Origin: Pseudomonas sp. B21-056
Lineage (GTDB): Bacteria > Pseudomonadota > Gammaproteobacteria > Pseudomonadales > Pseudomonadaceae
DNA: 64,000 nucleotides
Assembly: GCF_026016325.1 (NCBI RefSeq)
Contig: NZ_CP087203.1
Location: forward strand, 5,890,001 to 5,954,000
Direction of reading: 5' to 3'
Below are positions 58,295 to 61,437 of the stretch, piece by piece (within the stretch, counting starts at the first letter, position 1; every line of letters starts with the position of its first letter). The notes under the pieces are model-generated. The model was not told where the DNA came from. It saw only the letters and a program-made list of their open reading frames with translations, and did no database searches. The position numbers and the translations under genes are program-made.

Positions 58295-59631
58295 TGGGTA
58301 CCGTGAATAATCAGGCCGAAGCGTTCAAGGCACTGGTCGATTGGCTGCGCGCGGCGCTGCATGAGTCTGAACAGTTCACCCTCGGCTACACCGCCGAATC
58401 CTCGGCTTTCGTGCGCTTCAACCATGCCAAGGTCCGTCAGGCCGGGCAGGTGCAACAGGCCAATGTCAGTTTCAAACTGATCGACGACGGGCGCCACGCC
58501 GACCTGCAGATCACCTTGTCCGGCGAGACCGAAACCGACCTGCAACGCCTCGGCGAGGGCCTGCAACAGCTGCGCGATACCTTGCCGCTGCTGCCCCGCG
58601 ACCCTTATCTGCTGCTCAACCACAACCACTGGCAGAGCAACAACGTGCAAGACCATCCACTGCCGGAAACCGAGCAGGCCGTGGCCGAAATCAGCCGCGC
58701 CGCCGAGGGCCTGGACCTGGTGGGGATCTACGCCGCCGGCCCCATCAGTAGCGGTTTTGCCAGTTCTTCGGGGGCGTTCGGTTGGCATCAGGCCAATAGC
58801 TTCAACTTCGATTTCAGCCTGTTCCATGAAAACGGCCAGGCGGTGAAGGCCAGTTACGCCGGCCATGAGTGGAGCAGCGAAGGGTTCGCCAAGCGGTTTG
58901 CCCAAGCCCGCGAGCAACTGGCGTTTCTCGATCGTCCGCTGCGCACACTGCCACCCGGTGAATACCGCGCCTACCTCGCGCCGGCTGCCCTGGAAGAGAT
59001 CATGGGCATGCTCAGTTGGGGCGGGTTCTCGGCCCGGGCGATTGCCAGCAAGCAGAGTCCGTTGCAGAAGTTCTACGCTGACGAAGCCAGCTTCAGCCCC
59101 GCCGTGGGGTTGCGCGAACAGGTCAGCGGTTCCTTGAGCCCGGCGTTTTCCGATGAAGGTTATCCGCGCGATGACCTGGCACTGATCGCCAGGGGCACCG
59201 CCAACGTCCGGTTGATCAATTCACGCAGCGCCGCCGAGTACGGCCTTACCGCCAACGGTGCGAGCAGCTACGAATACCCCTCGGCGCTGGTCATGCAGGA
59301 AGGCCAGTTGGAACACAAAGACATTCTCGAACGTCTTGGCACCGGTTTGTACATCAGCAACCTCTGGTACCTGAACTACTCGGACCAGCCGGCGGCGCGC
59401 ATGACCGGGATGACCCGCTTCGCCACGTTCTGGGTCGAGAACGGCCAGATCCAGGCGCCGGTCAGCACCATGCGCTTCGACGACAGCGTCTACAGCCTGC
59501 TCGGCGCGCAACTCGAAGGCCTGACCCGGGAGCGGGAACTTCTGCTCTCGGCCAGTACCTACAGCCAGCGGGCCACGGCTTCGATGCTGTTGCCGGGGGC
59601 GTTGGTCAAGCGGCTGACGTTGACCCTTTAA
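58294..59631 (+). CDS. PmbA/TldE-like partner protein
   Basis: A 445-residue second member of the TldD/PmbA family without an HExxxH motif, as expected of the non-catalytic TldE-type partner. Family-like blocks are VGIYAAGPISSGFASSSGAF, WSSEGFAKRFAQAREQL and the C-terminal NLWYLNYSDQPAARMTGMTR. GGAGGAG lies upstream and the ATG shares a base with the preceding stop, so the two should be made in fixed ratio and form a heterodimer. The substrate peptide is unknown; no RiPP precursor is visible nearby. Confidence 0.83.
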   Translation: MGTVNNQAEAFKALVDWLRAALHESEQFTLGYTAESSAFVRFNHAKVRQAGQVQQANVSFKLIDDGRHADLQITLSGETETDLQRLGEGLQQLRDTLPLLPRDPYLLLNHNHWQSNNVQDHPLPETEQAVAEISRAAEGLDLVGIYAAGPISSGFASSSGAFGWHQANSFNFDFSLFHENGQAVKASYAGHEWSSEGFAKRFAQAREQLAFLDRPLRTLPPGEYRAYLAPAALEEIMGMLSWGGFSARAIASKQSPLQKFYADEASFSPAVGLREQVSGSLSPAFSDEGYPRDDLALIARGTANVRLINSRSAAEYGLTANGASSYEYPSALVMQEGQLEHKDILERLGTGLYISNLWYLNYSDQPAARMTGMTRFATFWVENGQIQAPVSTMRFDDSVYSLLGAQLEGLTRERELLLSASTYSQRATASMLLPGALVKRLTLTL

Positions 59632-59655
59632 CACAGAGCTCGACGCTGTACCCCT

Positions 59656-59668
59656 TGTGGCGAGGGAG
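59656..59668. repeat. Left fragment of a family-C REPIN split by the IS110 element
   Basis: TGTGGCGAGGGAG, the first 13 bases of a family-C unit. It continues at 61283 as AGCTTGCTCCCGCTGGGC. Rejoined through the shared AG it gives TGTGGCGAGGGAGCTTGCTC, the normal left arm. Confidence 0.85.
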
Positions 59669-59734
59669 TGGCCGCCGCGTCTTCGACGCTGCGCTGTCGC
59701 GCAGCAAACAAGCGCCCGACCTAAGATTGAGGTG

Positions 59735-59905
59735 CGCGCGGGGATGGAGACCGTAGCCATCACTGGTGTGTCAGCACCCGAGAGGGAGAGTGGTCCGCAC
59801 GGTATCGGCGTGGAGTCGTTGTAGGCACAGCAAGCTGTGACCACGTATGAGAGAGTGAATCCGTTCGCCACCGTGCTCCCCGCGCGCCTTTCAATCCTGC
59901 GAGGA
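59735..59905 (+). ncRNA. Candidate bridge RNA of the IS110 element (ends approximate)
   Basis: The non-coding region before the transposase holds four short guides in the order expected of an IS110 bridge RNA. GAGGGAG (59782-59788) equals the left target plus core. AGCAAGCT (59829-59836) is the reverse complement of core plus right target, AGCTTGCT. ATGAGAG (59847-59853) equals the element's right end plus core. GCCAC (59867-59871) is the reverse complement of GTGGC at the core/left end. Between the first two, TCCGCAC and GCGTGGA can pair imperfectly as a hairpin. The guide matches are seen directly; that the RNA is transcribed is inference. Confidence 0.65.
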
Positions 59906-59911
59906 ATTGTC

Positions 59912-61243
59912 ATGGCGCGCAAGAACCAACAGAAACGCTTTGAAGTGATTCACCCTCATTGTGCGGGTATCGATATTGGCAGTCGTGAGCACTGGGTCGC
60001 TGTTCATCCTGATCAAAGCGATCCGCCGGTTCGCTGCTTTTCGACCTTTACCGAAGATTTGGTGAAACTGGCCGAATGGCTGGAATCACTGAAAATCAAG
60101 GTCGTGGCGATGGAGGCAACCGGTGTTTACTGGATACCCCTATTCGAACTTCTCGATTCGAGAGGCTTTGAGGTGTATCTGGTCAACTCTCGTGCGACCC
60201 GCCAGATCACCGGTCGTAAATCTGACGTTCTGGATTGTCAGTGGATTTGGCAACTCATGACTCATGGTTTGCTCAGAGGCGCTTTTCGGCCTGCTGATGA
60301 TATTTGCTCGATGCGATCCTTGGTTCGTCAGCGTGCCATGAAGGTCCGCGATCAGGCCAAAACCAATCGTATGCAAAAAGCCCTGACCCAGATGAACATC
60401 CAGTTGGCCAATGTCATCAGCAATATCGCCGGCCTGACCGGTATGAAAATCATCAAGGCCATTATCGGCGGCGAGCGCGATCCTCAAGTACTGGCCAACT
60501 TTCGAGACGGTCGTATCAAGGCAGATCACCAGACCATTGCCCGTAGTTTGCATGGGAACTGGCGAGTCGAGCATCTGCATGCCCTGGCTCAGGAAGTGGC
60601 CGCCCATGACTTTCTGGAAGGGCAAATTACCGAATGCGACCAGGCCATCGTCGAGGCTCTAGATCGACTCCCTGTGTTGAACGATGTGCCCACGCAGCCC
60701 ACCAAGCCATTACGCAGCCCGCATCGCTCCGCAGATGAACAGGCCAGCCTGCATCGTGCGCTTGTGAAAATCATGGGGGTTGATCTGACGGCTATTCCTA
60801 CCATTGGAATTGAAAGTGCTTTGGTTCTGGCAAGCGAAATCGGGCCTGACTTGTCGCGCTTTCCCACTCAGCAGCAATTCAGTTCATGGATGGGGCTGGC
60901 GCCCCCCACCCGAATATCAGGGGGAAAGCCATTACCCGGTCAGGTTGCGAAAGTGTTTAACCGAGCGGCACAGGCTCTGAAGCAGGCCGCTTCCAGTGCT
61001 CGTAACGACAAGAGTTTCATCGGTGCCAGTCATCGCGCCCGACTGGCCCGTATGGATACCTCATGCGCGATCAAAGCGACCGCACATCAACTGGCCCGAT
61101 TGATCTACGCCATGCTGACCAAAGGACAGCCGTATGTGGAGCAAGGCATGGAAGAATTTGAAGCCAAAAGTCGTGATCGCCAGCTCAGAGCCTTGCAACG
61201 CAAAGCGACCAAGCTGGGCATGAGGTTGGTTGATGTTGCTTAA
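59912..61243 (+). CDS. IS110-family transposase (DEDD recombinase)
   Basis: A 443-residue recombinase. The N-terminal RuvC-like domain begins AGIDIGSREHWVAVHP (Asp21 first acidic residue), with the second acidic block VVAMEATGVYW and the KSDVLDCQWIWQL block. The C-terminal Tnp domain includes IPTIGIESALVLASEIG and FSSWMGLAPPTRISGGK. These enzymes act with an element-encoded bridge RNA to recombine donor and target. The start MARKNQQKRF has GAGGA about 9 bases upstream. The coding region looks intact, so the element may be active. Confidence 0.93.
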   Translation: MARKNQQKRFEVIHPHCAGIDIGSREHWVAVHPDQSDPPVRCFSTFTEDLVKLAEWLESLKIKVVAMEATGVYWIPLFELLDSRGFEVYLVNSRATRQITGRKSDVLDCQWIWQLMTHGLLRGAFRPADDICSMRSLVRQRAMKVRDQAKTNRMQKALTQMNIQLANVISNIAGLTGMKIIKAIIGGERDPQVLANFRDGRIKADHQTIARSLHGNWRVEHLHALAQEVAAHDFLEGQITECDQAIVEALDRLPVLNDVPTQPTKPLRSPHRSADEQASLHRALVKIMGVDLTAIPTIGIESALVLASEIGPDLSRFPTQQQFSSWMGLAPPTRISGGKPLPGQVAKVFNRAAQALKQAASSARNDKSFIGASHRARLARMDTSCAIKATAHQLARLIYAMLTKGQPYVEQGMEEFEAKSRDRQLRALQRKATKLGMRLVDVA

Positions 61244-61282
61244 AAGGCAATTAAAACAATGGGTTATATTTTGTTTGATGAG

Positions 61283-61437
61283 AGCTTGCTCCCGCTGGGC
61301 TGTGTAGGAGCTGTCGAGCGAAGCGAGGCTGCGATCTTTCCACTGACAATTGAGTCGAGAGTGAAAGATCAAGATCAAAAGATCGCAGGCTTCGCCAGCT
61401 CCTACACAGCCGAGCGGGAGCAAGCTCCCTCGCCACA
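61283..61437. repeat. Right part of the family-C REPIN split by the IS110 element
   Basis: AGCTTGCTCCCGCTGGGC, then GGAGCTGTCGAGCGAAGCGA, the central part, the opposing TTCGCCAGCTCC, and the closing right arm GGGAGCAAGCTCCCTCGCCACA. The right arm is a second, intact copy of the target in inverted orientation. Confidence 0.85.

Follow-up and report, generated by a model that had tools for sequence, protein, structure and literature searches.

Our analyses of the one IS110-family element in a 64,000-nucleotide stretch of DNA from Pseudomonas sp. B21-056 (the window) indicate, with a probability that we place at about 0.87, that it belongs to the ISPpu9 clade and that it would carry a 5' bridge RNA with a left target guide, a left donor guide and a loosely reading right target guide, with strand exchange at a core AG dinucleotide. 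An element of this kind is already known; the new parts are a corrected position for the right target guide and a set of transposase-free satellites that bear the same type of RNA. The correction concerns an earlier by-eye reading of four guides in this sequence, hereafter the original prediction.

In the mechanism that we propose, the bridge RNA encoded by the 5' region would have two loops, one for the target and one for the donor. GAGGGAG, the left target guide, ends in the core AG and would pair with the conserved head of one class of REP, and the left donor guide ATGAGAG would pair with the right end of the element itself. The target-loop strand opposite GAGGGAG would hold the putative right target guide, which would loosely read the right side of the site. 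The transposase would then exchange strands at AG, enabling the element to enter REPs in either loop orientation. Such a mechanism presumes transcription, binding, catalysis and a circular intermediate, and also that the window copy makes use of its right target guide.

Boundaries and family of the element

The transposase gene of the element is intact and the core AG is present at both junctions (Table 1). A PmbA/TldD-type gene lies on one side and an MFS transporter gene on the other. The host genome has three copies of the element, identical across 1616 bp. Comparisons of other multi-copy families gave no usable left boundary for genomes G020, G039 and G482, which have internal length differences or longer shared flanks.

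Table 1. Features of the element and its insertion site (window coordinates)
Feature	Position	Strand	Details and basis
Left half of interrupted REP (TTGTGGCGAGGGAG)	59655..59668	+	Core AG at 59667-59668; joining of the empty site; copies share the left flank and diverge beyond it
IS110-family element, ISPpu9 clade	59669..61284	+	1616 bp; same in three host copies; boundaries from these and a seven-copy relative
Parts of the element			Left end 59669-59911 (243 nt), then transposase gene, then right end to 61284 (41 nt)
Predicted bridge RNA	59734..59887	+	Closing stem 59734-59743 to 59879-59887; consensus fold and covariation
Putative right target guide region (TAGCCATC)	59754..59761	+	5' strand of target loop; placed by homology
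Left target guide GAGGGAG (5 nt plus core AG)	59782..59788	+	3' strand of target loop; covariation and swap control
Donor-loop hairpin containing AGCAAGCT (59829-59836)	59820..59845	+	Arms 59820-59831 and 59834-59845
Left donor guide ATGAGAG	59847..59853	+	Equals right element end 61278-61284; covariation and swap control
3' arms of stems containing GCCAC (59867-59871)	59866..59877	+	Helices 5 and 4, with 98.2% and 96.4% of cells paired
IS110 transposase, 443 aa	59912..61243	+	
Right half of interrupted REP (CTTGCTCCCGCTGGGC)	61285..61300	+	Second core AG at 61283-61284; joining of the empty site and inverted-repeat arms

Joining the two flanks restores a REP (TTGTGGCGAGGGAG/CTTGCTCCCGCTGGGC), in agreement with the earlier claim that the element splits a REP at GGCGAGGGAG/CTTGCTCCCG with AG on both sides. 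The span of 59656..61437 that had been given for the element was too long, as its real end is at 61284 and positions 61282-61427 form an inverted-repeat, REPIN-like structure that contains the other half of the broken REP, with inverted-repeat arms at 61282-61338 and 61371-61427. The inverted repeat is nested, such that the broken REP is one arm of the REPIN-like unit, and the unit also holds another palindrome of REP type (GTAGGAGCTG...). At a separate place the host genome has a lone decayed left end of the same element type (G000:C1:2016254-2016288; L124 and L125), accompanied by remnants that are bridge-RNA-like by eye; the model score there is only E 0.73, on the opposite strand.

The transposase has matches to PF01548 (81.8 bits) and PF02371 (42.9 bits), representing a DEDD RuvC-like N-terminal domain and a Transposase_20 C-terminal domain, and to NF033542, "IS110 family RNA-guided transposase", at 282.8 bits (cut-off 140), which confirms its earlier identification as an IS110 enzyme. 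It is also homologous to the IS621 transposase 8wt6 (E 2.9e-8). The layout of the element is that of the IS110 group, with a long non-coding region 5' of tnp (243 nt), a short right end (41 nt) and AG flanking all three host copies on both sides; the predicted RNA lies upstream of tnp, which places the element outside the IS1111 group, whose members have sub-terminal inverted repeats of 7-17 bp and the RNA on the other side of tnp. A close transposase, a common left-end motif and the REP target assign it to the ISPpu9 clade. Isoforms of an insertion sequence are defined by near-identity of the transposase, at about 95% or more. As the window transposase has 71% amino acid identity to P0068, a protein named ISPpu9-family transposase that is 97% identical to the transposase of relative L048, the element is not an isoform of ISPpu9.

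A conserved RNA fold with covarying left guides

An alignment of 14 left ends and satellites of the clade to one common structure produced a consensus fold that is closed by a stem and has a target loop carrying a small stem loop and, on the donor side, a stem and loop that include a longer hairpin. Across the 14 aligned RNAs 95.6% of 712 cells are paired, and shifting the partners by one to three columns lowers pairing to 31-55%. Compensatory changes were found in 12 of 51 pairs, compared with 5.8 in shuffles, and none of 500 shuffles reached 12. The window's own sequence adopts nearly the same fold, 2.5 sd below shuffles. The loops of the RNA covary with target and donor, as in bridge RNA systems. 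No sigma-70 consensus promoter was found in 59600-59960, and a search of Rfam returned no bridge-RNA family, both matches being below the gathering scores. By eye, a subgroup of relatives (L043, L044, L007 and L048) has a hairpin resembling a terminator (AAAGGCGGCTG...CAGCCGCCTTTT) that separates the left end from the bridge RNA and is absent from the window element.

All four strings named in the original prediction occur where it had placed them, GAGGGAG at 59782, AGCAAGCT at 59829, ATGAGAG at 59847 and GCCAC at 59867, and the two left ones are well substantiated as guides. For the guide set, 86 loci were considered, 12 of which had no motif match, 11 elements were added by hand, and 85 remained. 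Entry to the k-mer and covariation sets required a left flank and right end located with no more than one mismatch and enough sequence, which 74 of the 85 satisfied; removal of near-identical RNAs left 45 elements for the k-mer test and 49 for covariation. The left target guide covaries with the left flank at z 7.8-9.7 per position and the left donor guide with the right element end at z 5.5-6.9, figures that are conditional on a located match because of the one-mismatch filter.

As the flanks had been located using the guides themselves, we ran two controls, an unfiltered exchange of guides and guide-independent boundaries in multi-copy families. The former used distinct transposase-bearing elements and exchanged only guides that differed. 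For the left target guide, the final 7 nt were present in the upstream flank of the same element in 30 of 46 cases (missing in 16), whereas swapped guides matched in a mean of 2.0% and a maximum of 11.4%. Correspondingly, the final 7 nt of the donor guide on the left were present in the element's own downstream sequence in 37 of 44 (missing in seven; two elements were dropped for short flanks) compared to a mean of 3.1% and a maximum of 13.5% for swapped guides. These results supersede those of an earlier filtered, and hence conditional, swap control (27/41 for the left target and 36/41 for the left donor guide). In the second control, based on boundaries read independently of the guide, the five copies in genome G724 have five different right flanks and a left side in common only in GTAGGAG.

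The covariation can be followed in individual relatives, where GTGGGAG and GTAGGAG flanks are accompanied by GTGGGAG and GTAGGAG guides, and the right ends GATAAGAG and GATAGGAG by ATAAGAG and ATAGGAG donor guides. In total, 34 distinct left-guide 7-mers were identified among 46 elements, and the same guide frame is present in elements of Proteobacteria, Cyanobacteria and Acidobacteria (hosts by title). The finding named beforehand as counter-evidence, a non-coding region that varies independently of its flanks among related elements, thus spares the two left guides and refutes the two right guides that had been proposed.

Putative reading of the right side of the site

Column-wise comparison of 49 distinct elements revealed that right-flank positions 1-4 pair antiparallel with the elements' own positions 30-27 (z 7.3, reached in 0 of 2000 permutations; p 0.12 for the non-complement control). 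The signal is as clear in 37 distant relatives alone, with transposases no more than 56% identical (z 7.2, control p 0.15), and is absent in the window's own clade alone (p(max) 0.87; 12 elements, eleven from Pseudomonas and one from a Rhodanobacter MAG). Since the signal comes from the distant relatives only, the right target guide of the window is placed at 59754-59761 by homology. We infer that it lies on the 5' strand of the target loop ahead of the left guide, giving the predicted order right guide, stem loop, left guide. Such an order should be useful for the study or reprogramming of long (~440-aa) IS110 recombinases.

Any such reading is loose, as indicated by partial matches, by events without any match and by unrelated right flanks in G724 and at the satellites L144 and L183. 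The window guide matches the right flank at four of six positions where this is CTTGCT and at three of six where it is CAAGCT. Over 57 unique guide/flank events (of 68 anchored, by a pattern that fits some distant members only crudely), 99 of 228 cells match, compared to 61 expected and a maximum of 85 in 2000 shuffles, and six of the 57 events match at none of six positions. Close matches include that of L073 (6/6), and L006 and L048 from the window's own clade match at 5/6.

The alternative that fares best is that the RNA of this clade reads only the left half of the site and leaves the right flank free beyond the core, the preference for REPs being due to REP structure or to selection against insertions in genes. 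It is in keeping with the five different right flanks in G724, with L144 and L183 having only the ATGAGAG on their left in common, with the non-significant signal among the 12 elements of the clade, and with an exact k-mer test of right flank against RNA, which did not exceed permutations. An outright version, in which no part of the right flank is read, had been drawn from that k-mer test; it was overturned by column-wise and diagonal tests, whose reach was then limited by the split of the set. Against the left-half alternative stand the strong antiparallel covariation at one place in the loop in 37 distant relatives and the matches of L073, L006 and L048, and we consider it rather unlikely.

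The four-guide map of the original prediction, with a right target guide at 59829-59836, a right donor guide at 59867-59871 and an IS621-like order, is very improbable. Its appeal is that AGCAAGCT matches the right flank exactly over 8 nt in the window copy, in the second host copy (L002) and in the relative of 92% identity. However, the third host copy (L001), at CAAGCT, does not match, and among rows of the clade, in which the host genome is represented by that failing copy, the full 8-nt match is found in one of 15 (the 92% relative) and a 4-mer match in two of 15. The 8-mer is the apex of helix 8, a hairpin in which 6 of 11 pairs are changed on both sides and 97.4% of cells are paired, and it fails to track the right flank. 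Similarly, GCCAC forms part of helices 5 and 4, and 12 of the 14 aligned RNAs have it though the left ends differ (TGGC, TCCC, ATCC, GTCC, GTCT and TTTT). The window element (TGGC) and the P. zanjanensis element (TCCC) have identical donor loops despite their unlike left ends, and the exact k-mer test of left end against RNA gave 2 of 45 at 5 nt, the permutation mean being 4.4. The "expected order" of guides is mistaken because two of the four guides were wrong; by our placement, the target guide for the right side comes ahead of that for the left. An exact match to a junction can be the tip of a hairpin, and only comparison of relatives tells guides from structure.

A search for a right donor guide in its place found signal from left-end bases at several columns, including those of the left guide, which shared descent could equally produce. 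Two further observations concern these bases. The left ends of L034, L040, L041 and others begin with bases (TCCC, ATCC, GTCC) that complement GGGA in the left target, and left-end bases covary with left-guide columns at z 5.4, for which descent and a real second contact are both possible.

Insertion into REPs

All three host copies are at GGCGAGGGAG, with the right flank CTTGCT in two and CAAGCT in one (L001), so the expectation that every insertion lies at GAGGGAG/CTTGCT does not hold for one of the three. We read the CAAGCT copy as an insertion into a REP of that same class whose loop is turned the other way. Seven copies of the 92% relative in P. zanjanensis are all at GGCGAGGGAG/CTTGCTCCCGCT, and copy comparison revealed that every one of the ten sites is TGTGGCGAGGGAG. 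These ten insertions, together with the covariation, support the earlier proposal that the upstream RNA sets target and donor specificity for a Pseudomonas REP.

GAGGGAG occurs 361 times in the host genome, where the REP pattern GGCGAGGGAGCWWGCTC gave 62 listed rows (one palindromic site double-counted) and about 64 of 358 GAGGGAG sites are of this REP type. By our own arithmetic (0.18 cubed), the chance that all three host insertions would be in such REPs is about 0.006; the 7-nt left guide is therefore supplemented by something else, be it the right guide, the structure of REPs or selection against other sites. That the transposase protein itself recognises the REP, with guide-flank similarity a by-product of descent, would fit the likeness of close relatives in both REP class and guide but is hardly credible given that transposases 67-79% identical use GAGGGAG, GTGGGAG or GTAGGAG with matching guides, and given the 34 left-guide 7-mers in 46 elements.

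Transposase-free satellites

Some relatives in the ISPpu9 clade appear to be accompanied by parasites that have the guide RNA but lack the enzyme. In Pseudomonas sp. CFII64 (L042 2881-3241; NZ_ATLO01000004.1), a 361-bp transposase-free unit consists of a left end, a full bridge RNA and a right end, and is located directly 3' of an autonomous element with a single AG between them. The target guide of the unit, ATAGGAG, is identical to the right end of that neighbour (GATAGGAG), and its donor guide, ATGGGAG, to the unit's own right end. Ten helper-bearing genomes were searched whole, and only in CFII64 did a satellite adjoin a helper.

Model searches identified matches in 13 of 398 genomes of the genus, including G039 (six matches), G368, G081, G103, G193 and G342, and in eight of 398 genomes of the family, including G759 and G668; the two genome draws overlap, and several satellite copies are decayed or cut. 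No transposase adjoins the matches in the six named genomes of the genus (for G039, as checked at five of its six loci). The single match in G479 (L169), which is cut off after the donor guide, likewise has no adjoining transposase, and three viral contigs with the left-end motif had no model match.

A second type of satellite, ISPpu9-like, is represented by L144, L145, L146, L183, L188 and L193. The left end is nearly that of L048, and the target guide, ATGAGAG (ATGAAAG in L146), equals the right end of L048 (GTTTGATGAGAG). All six left flanks are readable, with the full ATGAGAG in L144, L145, L183 and L193, GTAAGAG in L188 and ATGAGGG in L146, whose guide is ATGAAAG. L144 and L183 are 99.1% identical and occupy unrelated places, one of them on a P. 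aeruginosa plasmid, with the common left flank ATGAGAG. None of the six insertions adjoins a helper.

The six matches in G039 (L141, L151, L155, L157, L158 and L159) are a family with only the bridge RNA, set for the GAGGGAG REP. GAGGGAG is present in these satellites, and where the left flank is readable, in three of them, it places the insertion at GGCGAGGGAG or GGTGAGGGAG. No transposase match was found in G039 among four candidates scored, and the inner and outer right ends suggest a composite unit.

Potentially, such satellites plug into the right junction of a helper, whose transposase would move them in trans. The joint reading, in which satellites carry a bridge RNA, two types of them are aimed at the right end of a helper instead of a REP, Ssr9 and Asr9 are linked to them, and the guide order is right then left, is one that we hold to be somewhat more probable than its negation. 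If true, IS110 elements have RNA-only parasites that are aimed at the end of their helper, and the satellites explain a small RNA of a model Pseudomonas that was described before bridge RNAs were known.

Ssr9 and Asr9 of P. putida KT2440

According to the paper on ISPpu9 small RNAs (PMC8450116), ssr9 is absent from two of the seven ISPpu9 copies and follows a B-AG-A junction where present, and A and B boxes occur in three orphan ssr9 copies, which apparently lie outside REPs. The same paper leaves open whether ssr9 moves independently with the help of tnp, and presents Ssr9 as an RNA sponge with a modest effect on Asr9 (~30%), deletion of ssr9 having little effect on transposition. Based on the 97% relative and on that published account, Ssr9 is probably the bridge RNA of a satellite of the kind described above, and our satellite data favour movement of ssr9 on its own with the help of tnp. 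The sponge effect and the deletion result neither require nor exclude a bridge RNA. A simple identity is opposed by the B boxes: KT2440 has the same one in the tnp part as in the ssr9 part, unlike the satellites identified here, which differ from the helper type at the right end.

Asr9, a stable antisense RNA, covers most of the ISPpu9 5' UTR, which is the bridge-RNA region (window 59734-59911, minus strand). Asr9 would then be antisense to a bridge RNA and could act as an anti-bridge RNA. A near-identical match to ISPpu9 of KT2440 was found neither in the viral contigs nor in 194 relatives of G020, and plasmids gave only a satellite. Among the open-access papers listed by our searches, including a meeting report (PMC12859917), we saw none that identifies Ssr9 as a bridge RNA or describes a transposase-free bridge-RNA element.

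Comparison with known systems

Insertion of ISPpu9, ISPpu10 and ISPa11 into REPs was described in 2006 (PMC1525189). Bridge RNAs followed in 2024, in a paper that cites the small RNAs of ISPpu9 as a precedent for IS110 non-coding RNA and includes, in the legend of Extended Data Fig. 10, a four-guide bridge RNA for ISPpu10 predicted by manual inspection (PMC11208160). The window element resembles ISPpu9 in its REP insertion with an AG direct repeat (PMC8450116, PMC1525189), and it has the left-end motif GCGCTGTCGCGCAGCAAAC in common with L048. It differs in its REP class, GGCGAGGGAG compared to GTGGGAG for L048, and in its shorter left end, and an ssr9-like second RNA segment was not found beside any of the three host copies. 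ISPpu10, which we set beside the window element by description, is likewise an occupant of REPs, at the same REP position as ISPpu9 (PMC1525189).

Similarities to IS621 extend to transposase homology, an RNA located in the left end, separate loops for target and donor and a dinucleotide core, which is CT in IS621 and AG in the window element. The arrangement of guides is a further difference: the loops of IS621 run stem, left guide, stem loop, right guide (PMC11208158), whereas in the window element both left guides come after a stem loop and the right target guide would come before one, the latter based on the distant relatives only. In that respect the window clade is comparable to the IS1111 seekRNA, in which the complement of the top strand precedes the match to the bottom strand (PMC11187229), though the RNA of IS1111 elements is downstream of the transposase gene and that of the window element is upstream.
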